Below, in pieces: positions 7,696 through 20,880 of a stretch of DNA of 64,000 nt. The position numbers and the translations under genes are program-made. Numbering within the stretch: the stretch's first letter is position 1; every line of letters begins with the position of its first letter. Source of the DNA: Gammaproteobacteria bacterium (GTDB lineage: Bacteria; Pseudomonadota; Gammaproteobacteria; JADZEE01); NCBI GenBank assembly GCA_020850735.1, contig JADZEE010000051.1:1-64000 (forward strand), given 5' to 3'. The notes below the pieces were generated by a model that had not been told where the DNA came from, ran no database searches, and saw only the letters and a list, made by a program, of their open reading frames with translations.

Positions 7696-8397
7696 GTGAA
7701 TCGGCTGCGCGGGTGCGTAAGCACCGTGCTCACCGGCCGCGCGCGGCCCTACACCCGACCGGGCAGCCGCAGCGCCATCGCCAAGCGGCCGGTCGAGGGG
7801 CCGGTCAGCGTGCATCGTGAAGGCCTCCTGGGCGACGAGCAGGGTGATCGGCGCGTGCACGGTGGCCCGGACAAGGCGGTGCATCTTTATGCCACGGAGC
7901 ACTACCCCGCGTGGCGCGACGAGCTTGGTGCGCGGCCGGTACTCGGCGCTCCGGGCGCCTTCGGCGAGAATCTCAGCACACAGGGCGTCACCGAGGCTGA
8001 CGTGTGCCTTGGCGATCGCCTGCGCATCGGCAGTGCGTTGCTGGAGGTATCGCAGTCACGCCAGCCCTGCTGGAAGCTCAATGACCGCTTCGGCGTGCCG
8101 GACATGGCGCTGCGAGTGCAACAGACCTCGCGCGCCGGCTGGTATTGTCGCGTGCTGGAGCCGGGCAGCTTGCAGGCGGGCGATGCGATCACCTTGATTG
8201 CCCGCCCGCACCCCGACTGGCCGCTGCTGCGTCTGATGGAGCTTCTCTACCACCGGCCGCTCGATCACGATTTATTGATGCTGGCGCGTGATTTGCCGCT
8301 GGTGCCGTCGTGGCGGCGGCTGATCGAAACCCGCCTGGCGTGCGGTGTGGTCGAGAGCTGGGCGGCACGCGTCGATGGGCCGGCGCGTGAGGCATGA
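7696..8397 (+). CDS. yiiM: MOSC domain protein (YiiM-like)
   Basis: This 233-residue protein starts at a GTG preceded by GGAAGG. The MOSC core includes GDEQGDRRVHGGPDKAVHLY, the GENLSTQGVTEADVCLGDRLRIG segment and the conserved cysteine in QPCWKL (residue 125), thought to carry sulfur or the molybdenum cofactor ligand. The C-terminal helical part (WPLLRLMELLYHRPLDHDLL) matches the 3-alpha domain of YiiM. YiiM-type proteins are Moco-dependent and linked to N-hydroxylated-compound reduction in E. coli. The 218 bp upstream (7478-7695) show no gene. Confidence 0.88.
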   Translation: MNRLRGCVSTVLTGRARPYTRPGSRSAIAKRPVEGPVSVHREGLLGDEQGDRRVHGGPDKAVHLYATEHYPAWRDELGARPVLGAPGAFGENLSTQGVTEADVCLGDRLRIGSALLEVSQSRQPCWKLNDRFGVPDMALRVQQTSRAGWYCRVLEPGSLQAGDAITLIARPHPDWPLLRLMELLYHRPLDHDLLMLARDLPLVPSWRRLIETRLACGVVESWAARVDGPAREA

Positions 8398-9495: not shown

Positions 9496-9588
9496 GCCCA
9501 ACAAGTCGTTGAACCGGACGCTTTTCCCCGTCCCTTCGCTTCCGCTCCGGTCGGTCGCCGTCAAGCGGCGGTTAACTCTGCGTTATGC
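9496..9588. other. attC-like integron recombination site (left of the defence operon)
   Basis: The 93-bp element starts with GCCCAAC (RYYYAAC core, 9496-9502) and ends with GTTATGC (GTT core, 9582-9588). Folding the arms pairs the two cores at five of seven positions. It leaves an unpaired spacer (AAGTC opposite TCTGC) and then pairs GTTGAACCG with CGGTTAAC, with one extra G on the 5' arm. An unpaired spacer plus an extrahelical base is the hallmark of attC sites. The loop is GC-rich. No integrase gene is in the window. The rest of the gap 9244-9639 holds no credible gene. Confidence 0.6.
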
Positions 9589-9639
9589 GCATCTGCTTTT
9601 TCGGAGCCATTGCCATAGCTAACAAGAAATGACTGCCGA

Positions 9640-11208
9640 GTGATCAAGGTTATCGACATTTTCGCAGGCCCTGGCGGCCTCAGCGAGGGCTTTGCTGCCG
9701 TCACCGACGCCAAGAGCAACCTAGTCTTCGATGTGGCGCTCTCGGTTGAGAAGGACGAGCGGGCGCACGCTACACTCCTTCTGCGTACGTTCTTCCGACA
9801 ATTTCCCGATTCGGCGCCTGACGATTACTACAGGCTGCTTCGAGCTGAGATCACCCGAGAAAGCCTGTTCGAGGCGCACCCGTCCGAGGCGAAGCTCGCG
9901 GAGAAGCGTGCGTGGCGCGCCACGCTTGGCGAGGAAGGCGAGGCCCGTTCAACCGTACGTGCTCGCATCAGGAAAGCGCTCGGCAGCGACACGAGCTGGG
10001 TACTTATCGGCGGCCCCCCGTGCCAAGCGTATTCGATTGCCGGCCGTTCGCGCAATCGCGGCAAGCGGAACTATGACCCAGCTAAAGACGAACGACAGCG
10101 ACTCTATGTCGAGTACCTGCAGATTCTGGCCGAACACCGGCCGGCCGTGTTCATCATGGAGAACGTCAAGGGTTTGCTCTCCGCCACGCTCGACAACGAG
10201 CGCGTGTTTCACAGAATACTGGAAGACCTTCGCGATCCCGCGAAAGCGATTCAACGAGAGGGCCGAGGCGGTATGAATGTCCGTCCGGGTGGCTACCGCA
10301 TCCATTCGTTGACGGAAGCTCACGTCCTTGAGAACGCAACCCTGCGCGGCGCAGTCATCGAAGCAGAGAAGTACGGTGTCCCTCAGGCCCGGCACCGCGT
10401 CTTCCTACTTGGAGTCCGCGACGACATCAACGACGTGAAGTCGCTTGTACTTACTGAACAGGAGCCCGTCCCCGCATCGTCGGTTATTGGGTCCCTACCC
10501 CGGCTGAGGGGCGGTTTATCGCCGCGGAAGAAGGATTCCCCTACCGCTTGGAAGTCGTACCTGCAGTCCCAGGGAACCAGCCGATGGGCGAACGCTGGAA
10601 CCCGAAGGGTGGCTGGTGACACGCTTGGGCGGTTCATTCGTGATAAGCTCAGCGAAATCTCGCTTCCACGGACGGACCGCGGTGCCGAGTTCCTTGCGGC
10701 CGATGCGGCAGCGGTGTACGCGTCGAACTGGTTCATGGACAGCCGCATCCAAGGCGTCTGCAATCACACCAGCCGTTCTCATATGCCCAAGGATCTGTGC
10801 CGCTATTTCTACGCCGCGTGCTACGCGAAACTTCACGGCCGCACGCCAGTCCTGAAGAACTTTCCGGCGGACCTTCTCCCGGATCACGTCAGCGCCAATA
10901 AGGCCGTCCAGAATGGCGGTCATTTCTCCGATCGCTTCCGGGTACAGATCGGGTCCCGTCCGAGTACAACGATTGTCTCGCACATCAGCAAGGACGGTCA
11001 CTACTACATCCACCCCGATCCGCTTCAATGCCGCAGCCTCACTGTGCGCGAAGCAGCGCGACTCCAGACATTTCCCGACAACTACTTCTTTTGCGGGAAT
11101 CGGACGGCCCAGTACGTCCAAGTCGGCAACGCTGTGCCTCCGCTGCTGGCACGTCAGATCGGTGAGATCGTGCGTGACCTGCTAAAAGCTGCCGGAGCTA
11201 ACAGCTGA
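9640..11208 (+). CDS. dcm: C5-cytosine DNA methyltransferase
   Basis: The 522-residue enzyme transfers methyl from SAM to the C5 of cytosine in a specific DNA sequence. Canonical motifs are present in order: motif I FAGPGGLSEGF (residues 8-18), motif IV GGPPCQAYS with the catalytic Cys128, motif VI ENVKG (174-178), motif VIII QARHR (249-253), a target-recognition region of about 220 residues, and motif X GNAVPPLLA near the C-terminus. The start is GTG. It opens the defence operon: vsr overlaps its stop codon, and four more genes follow with tiny gaps or overlaps. It probably marks host DNA as self for the downstream effectors. Confidence 0.95.
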   Translation: MIKVIDIFAGPGGLSEGFAAVTDAKSNLVFDVALSVEKDERAHATLLLRTFFRQFPDSAPDDYYRLLRAEITRESLFEAHPSEAKLAEKRAWRATLGEEGEARSTVRARIRKALGSDTSWVLIGGPPCQAYSIAGRSRNRGKRNYDPAKDERQRLYVEYLQILAEHRPAVFIMENVKGLLSATLDNERVFHRILEDLRDPAKAIQREGRGGMNVRPGGYRIHSLTEAHVLENATLRGAVIEAEKYGVPQARHRVFLLGVRDDINDVKSLVLTEQEPVPASSVIGSLPRLRGGLSPRKKDSPTAWKSYLQSQGTSRWANAGTRRVAGDTLGRFIRDKLSEISLPRTDRGAEFLAADAAAVYASNWFMDSRIQGVCNHTSRSHMPKDLCRYFYAACYAKLHGRTPVLKNFPADLLPDHVSANKAVQNGGHFSDRFRVQIGSRPSTTIVSHISKDGHYYIHPDPLQCRSLTVREAARLQTFPDNYFFCGNRTAQYVQVGNAVPPLLARQIGEIVRDLLKAAGANS

Positions 11209-11648
11209 TGGACCGTCTTACCCGTGAGCACCGGAGCTGGAACATGTCTCGCATCCGCGGGCGTGACACGCAGCCCGAACTCGTCGTCCGATCGGTTCTC
11301 CACCGCCTTGGGTTTCGGTTCAGAGTGCACGAACAGGAATTGCCGGGCTGCCCTGATGTGGTGCTTCCGCGACATCGCGTGGTTGTCTTCGTACACGGGT
11401 GCTTCTGGCACAGGCACCGAGGTTGCCGGTTCGCCTACACACCCAAAAGCAATGGCGCTTTCTGGTCGGACAAGTTCGAGCAAAACGTCGGGCGCGATTC
11501 CCGGAATAGGAAGGAGCTGCGACGCCTCGGTTGGCGCGTCGTCGTTATCTGGGAATGTCAGGCAGCCGACCGCACAGCGTTGACTCAACGGCTCGCTGCT
11601 GCTTTCAAGGCTGTCGATGGACCGCCTACAGGGGTGGCAACAGAATGA
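11208..11648 (+). CDS. vsr: Very short patch repair endonuclease (Vsr)
   Basis: This 146-residue enzyme nicks 5' of the T in T:G mismatches formed when 5-methylcytosine deaminates, which protects methylated sites from mutation. Typical Vsr features are WNMSRIRGRDTQPEL at the N-terminus (catalytic Asp and helix), RVHEQELPGCPDVVLPRHR with the PD-(D/E)XK-like aspartate, VFVHGCFWHRH (zinc and catalytic His), and WSDKFEQNVGRDSRNRKEL. The start overlaps the methyltransferase stop (TGATG) and the stop overlaps the next start (ATGA), so translation is coupled. Confidence 0.95.
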   Translation: MDRLTREHRSWNMSRIRGRDTQPELVVRSVLHRLGFRFRVHEQELPGCPDVVLPRHRVVVFVHGCFWHRHRGCRFAYTPKSNGAFWSDKFEQNVGRDSRNRKELRRLGWRVVVIWECQAADRTALTQRLAAAFKAVDGPPTGVATE

Positions 11649-13123
11649 ATGCCTCACTGCATCCGGGCGAGGACATAGCACCGATTCCGGGCGATCTCGT
11701 CGAATCGTTGCGCGACTTCGGCTATACGCTGCCTTCGGCACTGGCTGATCTCGTCGACAATAGCCTGACCGCTAAAGCAACAGAAATCGAGGCCTATCTC
11801 GAGGCCGACGGGCCCGACTCCTATGTCGCCGTGGTCGACAACGGGAGAGGAATGGACCAGAAGACGCTGGTTGAAGCCATGCGCATGGGTACCAAAGGCC
11901 CGCTCGCAGCCAGAAGCGACAACGACCTAGGCCGCTTTGGCTTGGGGATGAAGACCGCGTCCCTCTCTCAGGGGACGCGACTCACCGTGATCACCAAGGC
12001 TTCCGATAGACCGACGCTCGTGCGCCGCTGGGACGTGGGCCACATCCGTAAGAGCGCCAAGTGGGAGCTTCTTACTGACCCGACTGCAATCGCCGCGCCG
12101 TTTGTCGATAAGATCGACGGCATGTGCTCGGGCACGGCCGTGATTGTCGAGGACCTTGATCGCGCGACATATCTGAAGGTCGCTGCGAGCGAGGTAAAGC
12201 AGCATTTCGGAAGAAGCCTCGATAGCGTCCGGCGTCATCTGGCAATGGTGTTCCATCGCTTTATTGAAGACGGCGTCACGATCTGTCTGGGTTCTACCGC
12301 CCTGCCCGCGTGGGACCCGTTTCTGAAGAAGCAGTCGACGAAGCTGGCGACGGAGCACTTTGCGCTTCTGGGCAAGACGATCGACATCGTCCCCTACGTG
12401 CTTCCGCATCACAGTCATCTGACCGACGAGCAGCACGACGACGCGGCGGGACCCAATGGCTGGAATGCGCATCAAGGCTTCTACCTGTATCGCTGCAGGC
12501 GACTGATTCTCCCGGGTTCATGGCTCAATCTTCATCTGCGCAAGGAAGAGCATTTCAAGCTCGCGCGCATTCAGGTCGACCTGCCCAACAGCATGGACGC
12601 CGAATGGCACCTCAACGTCACGAAGTCACAGGTGGCTGCGCCCGCGGCGCTGCGGGATGATTTCGCCCGCGTGGCGCGCAACGTGCGCAGCCAGGCGGCC
12701 GCGGTTTACCGAATCAGGGGAGAACGTCATGCGCCTTCTAACGCGCCACCGCATCGCTTTGTATGGAAGCGGGAGGAATCAAGAGGCGCCGTGCGGTATC
12801 GCATCGACCGCACGCACCCGGTTGTCCAAGCTTTGCTTCATGGCGGATGCGAGCACGCGGGGCTGTTGGGCGAGATGCTTGAACTGATCGAGCGCACGGT
12901 GCCAATCGCCACGATGCTGCAGGATCCAGTGAAATCCCTCGAAGGCGCGGCGCTCGAGAGCGACGAAAAGGCCGCGGAGCAATTCGTCGACATGATGCTT
13001 CACGCCGAGCGTTTCCTGATCTCGGCAGGGAAGACGCCGGCAGACGCGCGACAGATCGTGATGAATGCTGAGCCCTTCGTGCACTTTCGGGAGGTTCTCT
13101 CTGACATGCTGAACAAGATCTGA
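11645..13123 (+). CDS. GHKL-type ATPase, MORC/MutL-like, of a restriction/defence operon
   Basis: This 492-residue protein has an N-terminal HATPase domain. ALADLVDNSLTAKA (Asp38/Asn39) is the Mg-ATP motif, VVDNGRGMD (65-71) is the DxGxG motif, and GRFGLGMKTASLSQG (96-110) is the ATP-lid glycine motif. The DLVDNS plus GLGMK arrangement resembles MutL/MORC ATPases that accompany R-M-type operons. By family it should dimerise on ATP binding and clamp or translocate on DNA. The C-terminal half is helical with no known motif. ATGA overlap with vsr and an 11-bp gap to the helicase show operon membership. Confidence 0.88.
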   Translation: MNASLHPGEDIAPIPGDLVESLRDFGYTLPSALADLVDNSLTAKATEIEAYLEADGPDSYVAVVDNGRGMDQKTLVEAMRMGTKGPLAARSDNDLGRFGLGMKTASLSQGTRLTVITKASDRPTLVRRWDVGHIRKSAKWELLTDPTAIAAPFVDKIDGMCSGTAVIVEDLDRATYLKVAASEVKQHFGRSLDSVRRHLAMVFHRFIEDGVTICLGSTALPAWDPFLKKQSTKLATEHFALLGKTIDIVPYVLPHHSHLTDEQHDDAAGPNGWNAHQGFYLYRCRRLILPGSWLNLHLRKEEHFKLARIQVDLPNSMDAEWHLNVTKSQVAAPAALRDDFARVARNVRSQAAAVYRIRGERHAPSNAPPHRFVWKREESRGAVRYRIDRTHPVVQALLHGGCEHAGLLGEMLELIERTVPIATMLQDPVKSLEGAALESDEKAAEQFVDMMLHAERFLISAGKTPADARQIVMNAEPFVHFREVLSDMLNKI

Positions 13124-13134
13124 CAACTTTCGAC

Positions 13135-15954
13135 GTGCCTTCTGTGAGCGACGATTCACCCTTTGGCGGATTCACAGCGGAAAACGCTGTCGATCTTCTG
13201 ATGCAGGCACTTAAGCTCGAAGTCGAACCCACGCCAGCGGAAGTCGAGGCCGAAGTCGACAAGCTGCTGACGGGGCTCTTTGCCGCGCTGAGGCCTTACC
13301 GACAGGCCATCATCGACGACGTCCTGAAGCGCATTCGCGTGCGCGTCGGCGTCGCCTCCGTGCTCTCCGACGATACCGGTCACATCGACTGGCTGCCGGG
13401 CGTTGACCGTACGCAATGGGAGTTCTGGCCACGCCTTGAGCGCTATCTGCGGCGCGCCGACGAACTGGAACCTGCGAAGGTACTTGAGCTCGATCGTTCC
13501 ACCGACAAGACACTGGAGCTTCTGGAATCACCCCTGCGCGAAGGCCGCTGGGATCGGCGCGGCCTCGTGGTCGGGCACGTGCAGTCTGGGAAGACCTCTC
13601 ATTACACGGCGCTGTCGGCCAAGGCGCTTGATGCCGGCTATCAGATCATCATCATCCTCGCCGGGGTCCATAACAGTCTGCGCGCGCAGACTCACGAGCG
13701 AATCGACGAGTATCTGATCGGGCGAGACTCTGCAGCACTGCTTGAAGCGGTGCGCCAGCAGCGCACGACGGTCGAAAGCGGCCAGCGCATCGGCGTGAGC
13801 GATTTTGACCTCAAGCGCGGCGTGCCCGACCCGCTTGTCTCCATCCTGACGTGCACGAACTCAAACGACACCGGCGATTTCAAGACGGCCGTCGCCACTC
13901 AAGTCGGCCTGCAGGTGGGAGCGGGTTCGCGACTAGTTATGGTCGTGAAGAAGAACGCGACCATCCTTCGGAACCTTGTCGATTGGATGCGGCTGCAAAA
14001 TGCGGCGCCCGGCACGGCTGGACCGGATCGGCGCGTTCTTGCACCCACGCTCGTAATCGACGACGAAGCGGATCATGCTTCCATCAACACGAAAGATCCC
14101 GATCAGGATCCAACAACAATCAACCGATTAATCCGCGAGCTCTTGATGGCTTTTGATCGCGTCTCGCTCGTCGGCTATACCGCGACGCCCTTTGCCAACA
14201 TTTTCATTCCGCTCGATGTCAATGCGGCCAATCCGGCCAAGTTTGGGGACGACCTTTTTCCCCGCTCGTTTATTGTCAATTTGAAACCGCCCTCCGACTA
14301 CATAGGGCCCGATCGCGTGTTCGGACATCCGGGGGACGAATCCATCAACATCCCCGAGCGCCCGCCGCTGCCGATGTTCGTTCCGGTGGCGGACGCGGGC
14401 ATCTGGATGCCCGACAAACACAAGAAGGACCATTATCCAGGCACCATTCCCCGTTCGCTGCAGGAAGCCGTACGGCTCTTCGTGTTGGTCTGCGCCGCGC
14501 GGGCGGCAAGGGGCAACGAGCAGGTTCACAACTCGATGCTCGTGCACGCCACGCGTTTCGTGAATGTGCAAAGCCGCGTCGCGGAGCAGATCGAGGTAGA
14601 ACTCAACGCACTTCGCAACGTCCTTAGCTTCGCCGCGCTCGGCAGCAGCCAGTCCGAGCGCCAGAAGATGAAGGACGTTTGGGACGACCAGATTTTGCAG
14701 AAGCACGAGGAATTCCGCGTCCAGCTTGGCGATGACTGTCCATCCCTGCCCGCATGGGATGACGTGTGGAAAGGCGTGGACGCTGCTTTGAGGCGCATCA
14801 CGGTCATGCGCGTCAACGGCACGTCTGCCGACGCGCTTAAGTACTCGAAGAACCCAGAAGGCGTCTACGTCATTGCCATCGGCGGCGACAAGCTCAGTCG
14901 CGGTCTCACGCTGGAAGGCCTGTCTGTCAGCTACTTCCTGCGCACGTCCAATATGTTCGACACGCTCCTGCAGATGGGACGCTGGTTCGGCTACCGGCCG
15001 GGATATTTGGATCTCTGCCGCGTGCATACAACGCCAACGCTCTACGCCGCGTTCCGGGAAATCGCCTTGGCGATGGAGGACCTGCGCGCTGATCTCGACC
15101 TCATGGCGGAGACGAAAAAGACACCGGTCGAGTTCGGCTTGCGCGTTCGCACACCGCAGGACGGGCTGGTTATCACATCCGCCAATAAGATTCGGCGCGG
15201 CGATCCCGTTCAGGTCCGCTTCGCGGATTCGATCATCCAGACGCTCGAGATTCCGCGAAAGGGCGACCAAGCCGGCGAGAACCGGGCCGCCGTCCGAACG
15301 TTGATCGAGCAGCTCGGCCGATCTGATCGCAAGGTGCGTGGCGATGCATCGCCGCATTACCTGTGGCACAACATCGGCGTCGACAAGGTGTTGGAGTTCT
15401 TAAGCCGCTATGAGGCTTTTTCGACGCCAAGCTTCTTCACGCGATGCACGGCGATCCGCAACTACATCCGCCAGCAGGTCGAAAAGGGCGAGCTGACCGG
15501 ATGGACCGTCGCCGTCGTCTCGAAGAGATCGAGCCCGCGTCAGGTCCGGCTTGGCGCTTATGACGTGAACCTGGTCGAGCGAGGAAAGGACTCGACGCCC
15601 GCACCGGAAGACCGCCTGCGCATGCGAGGCGTCGTCGGCAGCGAAGAAGAAGCGCTTGACCTCTCGCCTGCAGAATATGCGGTGGCCGATCGTGCGCGTG
15701 CGTCCAAGGGGGACGACGCTCCGAAATTCCGCGAGACCGTCCGAAATCAGCGGCCCGCCGCGCGCGGGCTCTTGTTGATCTATCCGGTGAAAGTGCGTGG
15801 AGAAGATCTGCAACTTGGAGAAGAGTTTATTCCGGCAGTCGCCATCAGCTTCCCGGCATCCCAGACGGCGCAGCCGCTCTCCTACACGGTCAACGACGTG
15901 TGGAAGAAGCAGTACGGTCTCATTGACGATCCCGATGACTACACCGCTGCGTGA
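13135..15954 (+). CDS. Z1-domain superfamily 2 helicase/endonuclease-like protein
   Basis: The protein has 939 residues; the start is uncertain (GTG 13135 or 13144, neither with a good ribosome-binding site). SF2 motifs are clear: Walker A GHVQSGKT at 147-154, Walker B-like LVIDDEADH at about 307-314, motif III-like VGYTATPFAN at 346-355, and the second RecA domain with GGDKLSRGLTLEGL and QMGRWFGYR (613-621) supplying the arginine finger. The QSGKT and QMGRWFGYR combination is diagnostic of Z1 proteins found in R-M-like operons. It is probably the DNA-translocating motor of the system. Its 3' end overlaps the next gene by 20 bp. Confidence 0.93.
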   Translation: MPSVSDDSPFGGFTAENAVDLLMQALKLEVEPTPAEVEAEVDKLLTGLFAALRPYRQAIIDDVLKRIRVRVGVASVLSDDTGHIDWLPGVDRTQWEFWPRLERYLRRADELEPAKVLELDRSTDKTLELLESPLREGRWDRRGLVVGHVQSGKTSHYTALSAKALDAGYQIIIILAGVHNSLRAQTHERIDEYLIGRDSAALLEAVRQQRTTVESGQRIGVSDFDLKRGVPDPLVSILTCTNSNDTGDFKTAVATQVGLQVGAGSRLVMVVKKNATILRNLVDWMRLQNAAPGTAGPDRRVLAPTLVIDDEADHASINTKDPDQDPTTINRLIRELLMAFDRVSLVGYTATPFANIFIPLDVNAANPAKFGDDLFPRSFIVNLKPPSDYIGPDRVFGHPGDESINIPERPPLPMFVPVADAGIWMPDKHKKDHYPGTIPRSLQEAVRLFVLVCAARAARGNEQVHNSMLVHATRFVNVQSRVAEQIEVELNALRNVLSFAALGSSQSERQKMKDVWDDQILQKHEEFRVQLGDDCPSLPAWDDVWKGVDAALRRITVMRVNGTSADALKYSKNPEGVYVIAIGGDKLSRGLTLEGLSVSYFLRTSNMFDTLLQMGRWFGYRPGYLDLCRVHTTPTLYAAFREIALAMEDLRADLDLMAETKKTPVEFGLRVRTPQDGLVITSANKIRRGDPVQVRFADSIIQTLEIPRKGDQAGENRAAVRTLIEQLGRSDRKVRGDASPHYLWHNIGVDKVLEFLSRYEAFSTPSFFTRCTAIRNYIRQQVEKGELTGWTVAVVSKRSSPRQVRLGAYDVNLVERGKDSTPAPEDRLRMRGVVGSEEEALDLSPAEYAVADRARASKGDDAPKFRETVRNQRPAARGLLLIYPVKVRGEDLQLGEEFIPAVAISFPASQTAQPLSYTVNDVWKKQYGLIDDPDDYTAA

Positions 15955-16948
15955 TACCTGGTCGGAACTGATTGGCGAAACCGGTCCAGCCCCGGTAGAT
16001 ATTCGCCTGCGTCTTGTTTTCAGCGGCGCGGACGTGCGCGCCTTTGCGGCGGTCACTGCGAAAGAGGGCCTGCCAGCCGTCCTTCTGGAGCTGCCGGACG
16101 CTGTACGTCCGCGCAACTTCAAGACACTTATCACGCGGGCTTTCCAGATGTCTGCGCCTTCCGTGAAGGGTCTGCCTTCCGGTCGTTGGGCGCTCTTAAT
16201 CGAGCTGAAGGACCGCACCTTTCAAGATCTGTTTGAGGTGCTGGTGGGCGATGTTCTGATCGCAATCCATTGCGACTCTGGAAACCAAGCGACGCTGCGA
16301 GCCGTTCTGCTTTGCATTGATCGCTGGCGCCGTTTTGTCGAGCGCAAGGGAGAGCCGTTGTCCGATGAAGAGGTGCAGGGGTTGATCGGGGAACTCGTTG
16401 TGCTTAGCCGCTGCGCTCGGTGTTTTGGTGCGGATGTGGCCCTTGCCGCGTGGACCGGGCCCGATCGTGCGTTGCGGGACTTCGAACTGCCTGACACTTC
16501 GGTCGAGGTGAAAACGTATCAGGGCGGCGACGCGGCGACGGTATTGATTTCTTCACCCGCCCAGTTGGACGCTGTTGCCATGCGGCCCGTCTATCTGGCA
16601 GCCGTCCGGCTCACGCTGTCGGACGCGCAAGGGCTCACGCTTTCTGAATTCGTCGGACGCGCGTTAAGCGTCATCGGCCCAGGTACGGCCAGCGATGGAG
16701 TTCTCGAAGAGCGCCTCGTGGCAGCCGGGTATCTTGCGGCCCACGCGCCTCTCTACGTCAAACGATTTATCGCCGGGCCTGTGATGACCTATGCCGTCAC
16801 CCCGGGCTTCCCCCGCATCCGCTCCATCGACGTGCCGCAGGGGGTCTCGGGCGTGCGCTTTGCGCTCAGCATCCCGGCGCTTGCTCCCTTTCAGGCCGCC
16901 GCTGTAGCCGTGATCGGCGGTCGCATCCCGGAATTAGAGAGCTTATGA
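15935..16948 (+). CDS. PD-(D/E)XK motif protein (DUF4420-like), putative nuclease
   Basis: The 337-residue protein overlaps the helicase gene by 20 bp. The middle region contains a candidate nuclease core: a helix with IGELVVLSRC (Glu153), RDFELPDTSVEVKT (Asp182/Asp187 and the E191-V-K193 pair), and a following strand with Gln/Ser residues. This matches the E...D...ExK layout of PD-(D/E)XK proteins encoded beside Z1 helicases. I infer that it is the DNA-cleaving subunit. The N-terminal third (LSRLRLVFSG-type strands) is a separate domain of unknown role. Confidence 0.85.
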   Translation: MTTPLRDTWSELIGETGPAPVDIRLRLVFSGADVRAFAAVTAKEGLPAVLLELPDAVRPRNFKTLITRAFQMSAPSVKGLPSGRWALLIELKDRTFQDLFEVLVGDVLIAIHCDSGNQATLRAVLLCIDRWRRFVERKGEPLSDEEVQGLIGELVVLSRCARCFGADVALAAWTGPDRALRDFELPDTSVEVKTYQGGDAATVLISSPAQLDAVAMRPVYLAAVRLTLSDAQGLTLSEFVGRALSVIGPGTASDGVLEERLVAAGYLAAHAPLYVKRFIAGPVMTYAVTPGFPRIRSIDVPQGVSGVRFALSIPALAPFQAAAVAVIGGRIPELESL

Positions 16949-16949
16949 C

Positions 16950-19034
16950 GTGATCGAACTTCAACGTTTCCTTGAGCAGCTGCGAAGCGACGCATTTGAT
17001 ACCGCCCACGACCCGGAAATCGGCGGGCTGCGCGTCCCGGCACTCGCCCGTGCCGTTCTCGACCGGCTGGAAGACGCGGGCGTCTCCGCCGACAGCCAGA
17101 TCGCGTACTACCGGCATGAGCGAACGAACGTCCATGCGGAGGTCCATGCGTATTCATGCGATGCGGAAGATGACATCATTTCGCTCTATTATCTTGTCGA
17201 TGGCAACGAGGATGTGCCGCTCGGAGAATCCGCGTCCGCCTTGGGCATAGCTAAGGATCAGATCGATCGCGCCTTCCGCCGCCTTGAAGCGTTTGTGAAG
17301 CTGGCGCAGGCGGACCGCGCACCTGACCTTGATCAGTCGCAGCCCGCCTCCGAACTCTTCGAACTCGTCAGCGCGTCTGCTGAAGCCGGACTGAAGGTCG
17401 TTCTCAACGTGCTGGTTCTCGGGATCGTGTCGGAACGGGCCGCCACCAGCGAGCAGAGAAAGGGCCTTGAGAGGGAAGTCTGGGACCTTGATCGTCTCGT
17501 CAAGACCTGCGGCGGAGACGGCGACGAACGGCCGTCCATCGACTTCGTCGATGAGTTCGGCGTGTCGCTCCCTTGCCTCGTGACGTCGAAGACGGATGAC
17601 GGCCTGCAGGTCTTCATGACCTGGATTCGCGGTGACGTTCTCGCGCAGATCTACAACACTTACAGAAGCCGTCTGCTCGAGCGAAACGTGCGCTCGTTTC
17701 TGCAGTTCACAGGGAGGGTAAACAAAGGCATTCGCGAAACTGTTCTCGATCGTCCCGCCAGATTTCTTTCCTACAACAACGGTCTTTCCGCAACCGCGTC
17801 CATTGTGAGCTTGGAGGACGTCGGCACCGGCCTCGCGCGCATTAGGGCGGTCAAGGACTTCCAGATCGTCAATGGAGGGCAGACAACCGCCTCGATTGCA
17901 AGCAGCGCCCGCCGCGACGGGATTGACGTGAGCAGCGTGTCCGTGGCCATGAAGTTGACGGTCGTTCCGTCGGACAAGCTCGACGAATTCGTGCCGCTGA
18001 TCTCGAAGTATGCGAACACCCAAAACCGAATCCAGGAGGCGGACTTCAGCGCTAACCATCCTTGGCACATCGAGCTCGAGCGCCTCTCGAGGAGTATCTG
18101 GACTAAGCCCACTGCGGACGCTCCGCGGGGTACGCGCTGGTTTTACGAACGCTCGCGGGGGCAGTATGCCGACGAGCTGGCCAGTCAGAACACGCCGGCG
18201 GGTCGGCGGCAGTTCAGAACCGCGAATCCTACATCGCAAAAGTTCACGAAAACCGATCTTGCAAAATACGTGCTGACCTGGGACCAGCAGCCGGCCGTCG
18301 TCAGCCGCGGCGCGCAGAAGTGCTTCGTCGATTTCATGAACAGGATTCAGCGGGAACGTCGGCCGGTGCCCGATACAAAGGAGTTTGAACGCATCGTCGG
18401 CCTTGCGATGCTCTTTCGCCGCGCGGAGAAACTATATGGCGAGATGGGGTACCAAGGCTATCGCGCGCAGGTCGTGACGTACAGCATCGCCAGGTTATCA
18501 AACGCGATGGCTCGCCGGCTGCCCTTTGACGCCATCTGGAAAGAGCAGGAGGTTCCTGAGGGCATCAAGGCGCCTCTCGCTAAAGTAATCATCGGCGTTC
18601 GCGACGTCATCGTACAGCCACCCGGGAATCGCAACATCACCGAGTGGTGCAAACGTGACGACTGCTGGGCTAGGATTCGCGCCCTCCCGGTCGAAGTCGA
18701 TGGCGCCGACGAGAGCACTTGGTCACCGAATCCCAGCCGTTCCGACCAGTTGGCGAACGCCGATGGAACCGTCATCGCGGTTGCAGCTGTGCCGTCGGAT
18801 GTATGGTTCGCGGCCTCAAAGTGGGCCAGAGATACGAGGACTCTTCTTCCTTGGCAGCGCAGCTTGGCATATTCACTCGGTGGTCGCCGAGGTCGCGGCT
18901 CAGCACCCACAGCTAAACAGGCGATTCAAGGTCGGAAGCTGTTGCTAGAAGCGGTCCGTCTCGGCTTCGGCCACGAGTATCTCACGAACGATGTTGTCCA
19001 TGCTCTTGCTGCGTCCGAAGCGCCTGACATCTGA
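16950..19034 (+). CDS. AIPR (abortive phage infection) family protein
   Basis: The 694-residue protein starts at a GTG one base after the preceding stop. The central block around residues 270-380 is typical of AIPR proteins: FLSYNNGLSATAS, then VKDFQIVNGGQTTASI and LISKYANTQNRIQEADFSAN. These occur in phage-exclusion loci and as terminal genes in Z1/MORC-type restriction operons. FQIVNGGQTT is strongly conserved, with Asn and Gln likely functional. It probably senses or executes the abortive response; the mechanism is unknown. It is the last gene of the operon; 19035-19297 contains no further gene of this system. Confidence 0.92.
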   Translation: MIELQRFLEQLRSDAFDTAHDPEIGGLRVPALARAVLDRLEDAGVSADSQIAYYRHERTNVHAEVHAYSCDAEDDIISLYYLVDGNEDVPLGESASALGIAKDQIDRAFRRLEAFVKLAQADRAPDLDQSQPASELFELVSASAEAGLKVVLNVLVLGIVSERAATSEQRKGLEREVWDLDRLVKTCGGDGDERPSIDFVDEFGVSLPCLVTSKTDDGLQVFMTWIRGDVLAQIYNTYRSRLLERNVRSFLQFTGRVNKGIRETVLDRPARFLSYNNGLSATASIVSLEDVGTGLARIRAVKDFQIVNGGQTTASIASSARRDGIDVSSVSVAMKLTVVPSDKLDEFVPLISKYANTQNRIQEADFSANHPWHIELERLSRSIWTKPTADAPRGTRWFYERSRGQYADELASQNTPAGRRQFRTANPTSQKFTKTDLAKYVLTWDQQPAVVSRGAQKCFVDFMNRIQRERRPVPDTKEFERIVGLAMLFRRAEKLYGEMGYQGYRAQVVTYSIARLSNAMARRLPFDAIWKEQEVPEGIKAPLAKVIIGVRDVIVQPPGNRNITEWCKRDDCWARIRALPVEVDGADESTWSPNPSRSDQLANADGTVIAVAAVPSDVWFAASKWARDTRTLLPWQRSLAYSLGGRRGRGSAPTAKQAIQGRKLLLEAVRLGFGHEYLTNDVVHALAASEAPDI

Positions 19035-19253
19035 CAATGCCTGTACCACAAATATGGTGCCGGCGCAGAAACGCATACGTTTGCACTTGACGGCCTATTC
19101 GTCGGGATACGCCGCAGGTGAAACGTTGCGTTGATATGACTTCCGCCGTCAAGATGCCGACTGAGTGTGAGCGACAGTTGCTCGTCGTCATCGGGGGCGC
19201 CCGAGCGATCGGAAGAGACGGAGCCTGTAACTGCGCCGGTATGCTGTTTGCTA

Positions 19254-19281
19254 TTGGCTATTGGCTGTTGGCTGTTGGCTG
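19254..19281. repeat. Short heptamer tandem repeat (TTGGCTR)4
   Basis: Four consecutive heptamers (TTGGCTA, then three TTGGCTG) occupy 19254-19281, with a degenerate fifth copy before them. They lie directly upstream of the ribosome-binding site of the gene at 19298, in a spot prone to slippage. The last G (19281) followed by TTAAGG could be the left crossover point of a gene cassette. Confidence 0.7.
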
Positions 19282-19297
19282 TTAAGGGGAGATCAGC

Positions 19298-19861
19298 ATG
19301 GGTTTACATGTTCATAATTTGGGTAACCTTCCTGCTGATGCAGAAAGGGGGTATTTCATTTATATGCTCGATTACGGCTGGCATGAGCCGTTATCAGAAG
19401 CGATGCGGGCGAACTTCACTAATATGGCTAGACTAGCATCCAAATCTAAGTCTGTCGTGATAGCCGGTGTAGAGCCGATCCATTTTGAAAACGAAGTGTT
19501 TTCCTATCATGGAATTAATGGCGAGCATGGAGAAGAAGTACTCCCAGCATTAATGATTACTACTTTGCACCCGAGATACTTTAAAGAAAATAATCATGCG
19601 TGGCGAGAAAGTGGTGAGATAGACGATAAACTACTTCTTATCCCACTAAAGAAATGCTGTAAAACTACGAGTGACGTAGTAGCACTGATTCATAAGATCT
19701 TTAAGGACATCGAAGAAAAGAAGGAGCTTGCAAATTTTTCAATCCAGAAAGAAATAAGGAAAAAAAGTGGGTGGCGCGCGGCAGCAGATGCGTTCATTTT
19801 GCAACCAAATATCAGCGGTATCGGCGTTGATTTTAGGAAGTTACTCGGGTTCGGCAGCTAA
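19298..19861 (+). CDS. AT-rich orphan gene, cassette-like, unknown function
   Basis: The protein has 187 residues and I do not recognise a family. Base composition (about 40% GC) and use of AAA/AAT/ATT codons differ sharply from every neighbour, so recent transfer is likely. The N-terminal part looks like an alpha/beta fold (GYFIYMLDYGW, then SKSVVIAGVEPIHF). ALMITTLHPRYF follows, and the C-terminus is lysine-rich and helical (KIFKDIEEKKELANFSIQK). There is no signal peptide. AAGGGGA precedes the ATG. The TAA stop lies inside the 5' core of an attC-like site, as is usual for integron cassette genes. Confidence 0.75.
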   Translation: MGLHVHNLGNLPADAERGYFIYMLDYGWHEPLSEAMRANFTNMARLASKSKSVVIAGVEPIHFENEVFSYHGINGEHGEEVLPALMITTLHPRYFKENNHAWRESGEIDDKLLLIPLKKCCKTTSDVVALIHKIFKDIEEKKELANFSIQKEIRKKSGWRAAADAFILQPNISGIGVDFRKLLGFGS

Positions 19862-19927
19862 CAAGCGCATGTTGTCGGGCTGGTTTTTCGCTTCGCTTCA
19901 AACCAGCCGCAAATGCGGGCGATATCT
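19856..19927. other. attC-like site following the orphan gene
   Basis: The 72-bp element begins AGCTAAC (19856-19862) and ends GATATCT (19921-19927), with cores pairing at five of seven positions. The arms CGCATGTTGTCGGGCTGGTTT and AAACCAGCCGCAAATGCG pair along their whole length if three single bases (G, T, G) of the 5' arm are extrahelical. That is the asymmetric bulge pattern that defines attC strand choice. The outer right core lacks GTT and starts G-A-T, as expected if the cassette was inserted at a secondary (GWT) site or the core has decayed. Confidence 0.55.
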
Positions 19928-20003
19928 GTGGGTTGGTTGCCACCGTACTTGTGTCCGTCGGTCGTTGGCTTCGATCTAGGGACGACGGTCCAGCGTGGGC
20001 TCG

Positions 20004-20108
20004 ATGCGCAAGACTAAGGTCTGGGGGTTGAAGCGGGTCGAGTTCCAAACGGTGCTGACGATGCCCGGGTACACCCTGGTGCGGTCGCGCCGGTTGCTGG
20101 TGACTTGA
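20004..20108 (+). pseudogene. Transposase C-terminal remnant (IS4/IS5/IS1182-like)
   Basis: A 34-codon frame, ending VLTMPGYTLVRSRRLLVT before a TGA, resembles the end of DDE transposases (R-GL-RVE...FT-AAYNLVRM-RLL). No upstream part of the transposase remains in frame. It lies between the attC-like site and the IS66 remnant, so this is a region of decayed mobile elements. The sequence 19928-20003 shows nothing else. Confidence 0.4.
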
Positions 20109-20160: not shown

Positions 20161-20880
20161 TTACTGCGTAGCGAGATAGAGATCAGAACGCGGTGGATTA
20201 TCGGCGAACAGTGTCTTCCAGCGCCGCGGTGTCAATGTCTCGATGTCCTTGTCAGGGTGAATAGCGATCGGCTGCAGGACATCGACCAAGTAGGTGTAGG
20301 GATTGAGGCCGTGCAGCCTGCAGGTCCTCATCAAGCTCTGGATGACGCCGACGTATTCGGCACCGACCTCGATCCAGCAGAACAGCCAAGCCTTGCGACC
20401 CATCGGTATGGGACGCAGTGCACGCTCGAGATGTTTCGCGGCGACGGCTGGGTCGCCGAGGTAAACACGGAGCGCTCCTTCGCGTTCACGGACATACGCC
20501 AACGCCTTGGCTAACTGGCTGCTCGGGATCAGGCCGAGATGATGGCACTGCCTATCGACCCAGGCGAAAAAGCATCCATTGCCGGCAAGGCGTCACGCTG
20601 GGGGAGTTCGAGGATCGCCGTGGCGCCGAGTTGCTTCTCACGGAACGCCGCTTCCACATACAGCCGCCTAATCAACGTGAGTTCCGCAGCCACCACCGTC
20701 GGCTCATCGGCCTCGGCCTTGACGAACATCCGCCGCGTATGGCTCCAGCATTGTGCATAGACGAGCTCGGGTCGCTTTTGCGCAAAGCTCGCATAAGCAG
20801 CCGTGTCATCGTTGAGCAAGGTCCCGGCGACGTCGGCGAGGACGGTGTCGACGTGCTTAGGACACAGATCCAAATTAGCT
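20161..20880 (-). pseudogene. IS66-family transposase, C-terminal half, frameshifted
   Basis: On the minus strand one frame (about 20880-20570) carries VDTVLADVAGTLLNDDTAAY, then AQCWSHTRRMFVKAEADEP and LTLIRRLYVEAAFREK. The frame then breaks near 20570. A second frame continues with LAKALAYVREREGALRVYL, HLERALRPIPMGRKAWLF and TCRLHGLNPYTYLVDVLQ to the stop at 20161. This is the catalytic and C-terminal part of an IS66 TnpC. The N-terminal helix-turn-helix and zinc-finger part, the terminal inverted repeats and the accessory genes are not detectable. A deletion also seems to have removed residues before HLERALRP. Confidence 0.8.

Follow-up and report, generated by a model that had tools for sequence, protein, structure and literature searches.

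A surplus of one base on one arm is a mark of attC sites, and the consensus of attG sites, which Loot et al. are said to have described in 2024, is GWT. According to Souque et al. (2023, mBio, PMC10127599), the sites used by IntI1 share a GNT triplet, and cleavage between the G and the A of GAT is possible, especially at secondary sites. Ghaly et al. (2021, PMC8352920) show that members of a taxon have a conserved attC structure and that these structures also group by environment, one clade being marine. In the IntegronFinder 2.0 paper (PMC9024848), attC sites without a neighbouring integrase are termed CALIN.

Here we describe a 187-aa gene in a 64,000-nt stretch of DNA (the window, meaning the whole stretch that was analysed). 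Our analysis indicates that this gene, its short leader and its own attC almost certainly constitute an integron gene cassette. The coordinates of the features are collected in the table; in the table and the text, a slash within a site marks the crossover.

Features of the locus, with positions in the window
Feature	Position	Strand	Basis and remarks
Second attC, canonical	9496-9588	+	Covariance model; GCCCAAC ... GTTATGC; L boxes GTTGAACCG and CGGTTAAC
Mza-type defence operon	9640-19034	+	Pfam, PADLOC
Dcm-like methylase	9640-11208	+	Pfam/PADLOC
Vsr	11208-11648	+	Pfam/PADLOC
MzaB	11531-13123	+	PADLOC
MzaC (Z1)	13135-15954	+	PADLOC/Pfam
MzaD (DUF4420)	15797-16948	+	PADLOC/Pfam
MzaE (AIPR)	16950-19034	+	PADLOC/Pfam
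Hairpin, 35 bp after MzaE	19069-19133	+	Fold z -3.5; 12.4 bits, E 0.57
Heptamer repeat (GGCTATT or GGCTGTT), left flank of the putative insertion	19247-19281	+	Not found elsewhere in the host genome
Integron gene cassette (almost certain), 640 bp	19282-19921	+	From T19282 (after G19281/TTAAGG) to G19921 (before /ATATCT)
187-aa gene, accessory family	19298-19861	+	Open frame, ATG start; six homologues
attC, apparently of marine (Alteromonadales/Vibrionales plasmid) type	19856-19927	+	Covariance model; R'' AGCTAAC at 19856-19862; R' position 19921-19927 reads GATATCT, not GTTRRRY
Remnant of an IS66 transposase (C-terminal part), downstream of the cassette	20161-20502	-	Pfam

Cassette boundaries and attC

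A reading made from the sequence alone had described an AT-rich gene in high-GC surroundings whose stop codon lies in an attC core, and our measurements agree on both counts. The open reading frame has a GC content of 0.420 and a GC3 of 0.415 (42% and 41%), against 0.60-0.615 and 0.67-0.74 (60-61.5% and 67-74%) in the four operon genes measured upstream, and most of the remaining window has approximately 65-72% GC. The TAA of the 187-codon frame (19859-19861) falls within AGCTAAC, which matches RYYYAAC at six of seven positions and forms the R'' box of a complete attC. The composition break was dropped as a marker of the junctions; the best two-state split, 19239-19843, is close to them but off.

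To identify the attC, we used a covariance model of ten similar sites, all taken from other records, with the window's own site left out. In a search of the 64-kb window, the whole 72-nt hairpin scored 86.9 bits (E 4.7e-25), and its fold beat 194 of 200 shuffles. The left arm of the stem has 9 nt, CGCATGTTG, and the right arm 8 nt, CAAATGCG, a surplus of one base. Thus the R'' and R' boxes, the L'' and L' arms, the unpaired base and the hairpin are all present, with a deviation in the R' box (GATATCT), and there is a single open reading frame with a short leader that begins at the crossover. The stem-pattern scan was insensitive, finding one of at least six attCs in the homologue-bearing locus L040 described below, and covariance models were therefore used instead. 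Alignments A3, A5 and A6 mixed attC types and were left out of the models, and an Rfam search returned nothing meaningful.

At the left junction, G19281/TTAAGGGGAGATCAGC is followed by the ATG; TTAAGG begins 16 nt 5' of the start codon, with a GGGGAG ribosome site between them. At the local composition, a GTTA would be expected 15-25 nt ahead of a start codon by chance with a probability of approximately 0.011. The alignment with the closest homologue (L003) spans TTAA to GCTAAC, with identities of 13/18 (72%) in the leader and 380/568 (67%) in the gene; outside the cassette, identity is 16/50 (32%) upstream and 21/62 (34%) downstream. The right junction reads G/ATATCT (19921-19927), not G/TTRRRY. 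Nineteen similar sites other than the window's own were read. All 12 with a complete right arm (L012, L013, L019, L021, L022, L024-L027 and L035-L037, of which L024-L027 are four of 26 plasmid records) have G/TTA at the crossover, and only the window has G/ATA. The right ends of L014, L015 and L020 have diverged with TTA still present, and the right end of the site was not reached in L016, L017, L018 and L023.

A blastn search of plasmids with the 71-bp attC matched these 26 records, the best four matches being from Pseudoalteromonas (two), Catenovulum and Salinivibrio with 86.6-91% identity. Similar attCs were also present in 12 genomes besides the host in a scan of 369 genomes of its class, and in three viral contigs in a pattern scan, while the ten-site model detected no second site of this type elsewhere in the host genome. 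The plasmid matches suggest that the attC belongs to a marine type, best known from such plasmids. Sites of the same type lie directly behind SIR2 and ATP-binding genes on a Catenovulum plasmid (L025, 1216-4067) and directly behind a caspase-family gene on a Salinivibrio plasmid (L026, 2494-4066); SIR2, ATP-binding and caspase-family genes are kinds often linked to defence.

Contig C82 of the host encodes a complete IntI (471 bits; cut-off, 265). The attCs of the host array are of the GC-rich GCCCAACCAGCCGCTCAACCCGACGC...GCGTTAGGC type, unlike the attC of the cassette, and more copies of the host type were found on contigs C18 and C100 in a search that scored 150 of 4750 first-look candidates. 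The host intI is located just upstream of lexA and of a gene with a weak SulA/RecA match, all on one strand (L006, 101-2469). We read the latter gene as ImuA-like; the host integrase adjoins an SOS regulator.

The encoded protein and its relatives

The 187-aa protein had been called unrecognised, and the profile searches left it so: Pfam gave nothing above the cut-off (its one sub-threshold match, E 0.028, is eukaryotic), NCBIfam and PHROGs gave no match at all, and no solved structure matched by sequence. For the antiphage or toxin-type role that the sequence-only reading called conceivable, no defence profile matched above threshold (PADLOC best, 11.6 bits, E 0.027). Mean pLDDT was 68.5 and 68.2 in two AlphaFold2 models made with 5 and 7 sequences, and the last 30 residues scored below 50. 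The structure search that had been asked for, with Foldseek, found nothing in the PDB at E <= 0.001; its best matches were PDI-related and thioredoxin domains, from E 5.9e-3. Nearly all matches from VIA-align were thioredoxins (Z up to 8.8, rmsd 2.7, 102 residues). By VIA-align's own note, models that lack a clear match usually reach a best Z of 7-8, so the thioredoxin likeness is only a lead.

The order of strands and helices in the low-confidence model fits the thioredoxin fold (beta-alpha-beta-alpha-beta-beta-alpha core), and a thioredoxin-like fold is weakly suggested. P83 in the invariant LPA could be the cis-proline of that fold, and W28-x-x-P31 stands at what we take to be the place of the thioredoxin WCGPC; a CxxC motif is absent from all seven aligned proteins. 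Thioredoxin-like proteins (thioredoxins, ERp27 and PDI b' domains) are thus the best structural matches of the model, but the 187-aa protein differs from them in lacking CxxC, in its low-confidence model (mean pLDDT 68) and in having no sequence match to a solved structure. If the fold is right, the protein falls outside the usual redox enzymes. The product would then probably be a soluble accessory protein with a thioredoxin fold and no redox activity. That it acts by binding or regulation in defence or stress is a doubtful guess from the genomic company.

Six homologues besides the window protein were found, with 47-68% identity over the alignment. Three (L003, L004 and L005) are in metagenome-assembled genomes titled Pseudohongiella, Sedimentisphaerales and Epsilonproteobacteria, respectively. 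One is in genome G709, out of 397 other genomes of the phylum; 150 genomes of its family contained no further homologue. Two are in viral contigs (L054 and L055), where an alignment scan detected them and a single-protein scan detected none. Neither the 72,556 plasmid records nor the 50,697 phage records searched yielded a homologue.

The G709 copy (L040, 7557-8213, with a GTG start at 8123) is flanked by attCs just before (8199-8141) and just after it (7551-7492), with several more in a row, and an IntI-like tyrosine recombinase (L040, 11543-12532) lies 3.3 kb away. This homologue is an ordinary integron cassette. The search for cassette homologues with attC sites, which the sequence-only reading had proposed, therefore yielded one inside a real integron array of another genome, providing independent support for the cassette identity of the gene in the window. 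With the attC model R1, none of the loci L003, L004, L005, L054 and L055 gave a site; the stem-pattern scan came up empty at four of the five and at L005 gave only an AT-rich match inside the gene.

In L055 (4257-5591), the homologue lies behind tail-fibre genes at the provirus edge, a usual place for cargo genes. In L054 (5001-6828), it overlaps by 14 nt with the gene of a 416-aa protein without a Pfam match, beside a phage-type integrase, and the two may form a two-gene module; the phage-gene names at both loci are our reading of the translations. Homologues thus come from one integron, from proviral contigs and from fragments of genomes, indicating a protein family of the mobile gene pool for which integrons are one vehicle, and which is undescribed in the libraries searched.

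The neighbouring Mza operon

The 187-aa gene is located 263 bp behind MzaE on the same strand. Promoter and terminator searches in 18950-20050 gave one match of each kind, as many as in shuffled sequences. Since no convincing promoter was found and the gene follows MzaE in the same orientation, read-through from the Mza operon is plausible, and the cassette gene is likely expressed in this way. The MzaA sigma factor was not seen in the window operon; a Dcm-type methylase and Vsr are in the place where the operon of another locus, L050, has MzaA.

The attC upstream of the operon was scored with a model of six sites from another genome and two from the host's own array, giving 32.1 bits (E 6.6e-6; next best match, E 1.9). 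The strict attC pattern is expected 0.115 times in the island. The crossover of this site is 58 bp 5' of the methylase gene, the first in the operon, and the site is of a type like that of the host's own integron. The hairpin behind MzaE is long and has three single-base bulges on one arm, an attC-like shape, and is possibly a decayed attC. It was not significant with either covariance model and so was not counted as a third attC.

At L050, which is in another genome, the MzaABCDE operon is complete and directly follows an attC-like site (12051-12139, minus strand), itself preceded by a 181-aa gene; the score of this site is weak (14.7 bits, E 0.049 in 15.9 kb). We compared 21 Mza-type loci, namely the window, five others including L050 and thus four more MzaC loci, and 15 MzaB loci. 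An attC-like site was present only in the window and at L050. None was found at the four more MzaC loci or at the 15 MzaB loci, the latter scanned under default filters that may lose long sites and with several loci cut at contig ends, and the attC model R2 found no site in 20 Mza loci. With attC-like sites in only two of 21 loci, Mza is not usually cassette-borne. The canonical attC ending before the first gene, the possible decayed attC after the last and the likeness to L050 may nevertheless point to a giant cassette. That the 9.4-kb Dcm-Vsr-MzaBCDE operon is such a cassette, and that a cluster of two or three cassettes spanning 9583-19921 arose at an off-target site in the chromosome, is an unlikely proposal; if upheld, attC sites tied to a multi-gene defence operon would stretch the known cassette size.

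Placement of the cassette and comparison with known systems

The sequence-only reading regarded the locus as the standard layout of integron cassette genes. The cassette identity holds, given the attC score, the 12 complete relatives that are ordinary attCs and the homologue in a real integron. In contrast, the layout is not quite standard: an integrase and a canonical array are both missing, the R' box deviates from the canonical form, and the closest other secure attC lies approximately 10.3 kb upstream. The IntI gene is on contig C82 and the window on C51, so the cassette does not adjoin intI or attI.

On balance, we favor the view that the cassette was placed in the chromosome by off-target insertion at a non-standard site. 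The event, the integrase and the direction that we infer are as follows. A circular cassette with the attC ...GGGCG/TTAAGG... would have been recombined by an IntI, that of the host or of a former neighbour, with a secondary attG-like (GWT) site in the chromosome, ...GGCTG/ATATCTG.... The intact target would have read ...GGCTG/ATATCTGTGG..., with the target site GGCTGATATCTG. The left junction would have gained the TTAAGG half of the cassette, and the right junction would have kept the ATATCT of the target. At the locus, a putative GWT target is split by the cassette, with G/TTAAGG on the left and G/ATATCT on the right; the TTAA half at the 5' junction and ATATCT at the 3' junction are what a circular cassette inserted at GGCTG/ATATC would leave. 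In the search for an empty site, which found none, the downstream flank matched short fragments only across 369 genomes of the class, none of them a useful homologue, and the flanks matched in plasmids only the attC and the heptamer repeat; the taxonomic order of the host is represented by this one genome. Heptamer repeats similar to that of the left flank occur on Thiothrix and Mycetohabitans plasmids.

This view is weakened by the single substitution that separates GATATCT from a normal R' box, GTTATCT. A mutated terminal attC would look alike, so the right junction alone is no proof. Furthermore, the left-flank repeat has GGCTGTT units, which partly explain the GTT of the junction, and the second attC, 10.3 kb upstream, leaves room for a decayed cluster of cassettes. 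The cassette might then be the last of such a cluster (a CALIN) that includes the upstream attC and reached the chromosome in another way, its R' box GTTATCT having undergone a T-to-A point change. We regard this as a lesser but serious possibility: the upstream site is canonical and in the same orientation, and the hairpin after MzaE (z -3.5) could be a decayed attC. However, the changed base is at the crossover and is kept in all 12 complete relatives; the left end G/TTAA has no preceding attC, the nearest hairpin ending approximately 150 bp upstream and not being significant with either model; and the two secure attCs, far apart as they are, differ in type.

Two further explanations concern the ends and the identity of the feature. 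A later deletion or IS-associated rearrangement may have cut the right end of the cassette with a breakpoint at the crossover by chance, and the IS66 remnant 240 bp downstream would suit such an event; yet the attC is complete up to the exact crossover base, which is rarely expected of a random breakpoint, and this explanation is very improbable. It is more improbable still, to the point of being negligible, that the likeness to attC arose by chance and the gene is just an ordinary accessory gene of the chromosome or of a provirus. The sequence-only reading had named chromosomal homologues without attC sites as the result that would count against it, and in part this was seen, since five of the six homologues are in stretches where no convincing attC was detected, two of them proviral; but none was shown to be a conserved chromosomal gene, and both the E-value of the attC (4.7e-25) and the homologue located in an integron array argue for a cassette.

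If the off-target insertion is true, the locus is a natural case of a cassette that settled outside an integron, beside a defence operon, in a genome that retains an IntI and whose native attCs are of another type.

Our study allows comparison with three kinds of described system. Like cassettes at non-classical attG or secondary sites, the cassette has its right junction at a GWT triplet and its TTR half at the left junction; the difference is that we infer the event here from a single natural locus. With cassettes bearing Alteromonadales/Vibrionales attCs it shares a 72-nt attC that is 86.6-91% identical to the plasmid sites, a short leader with a ribosome site and a stop codon in R'', whereas here R' is GATATCT, there is no array and the host integron has another attC type. 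As in a CALIN, the attC sites have no adjoining integrase, but here only two are secure, 10.3 kb apart with the defence operon between them. The feature is therefore an ordinary integron cassette in identity, and its unusual address may record off-target integrase activity.
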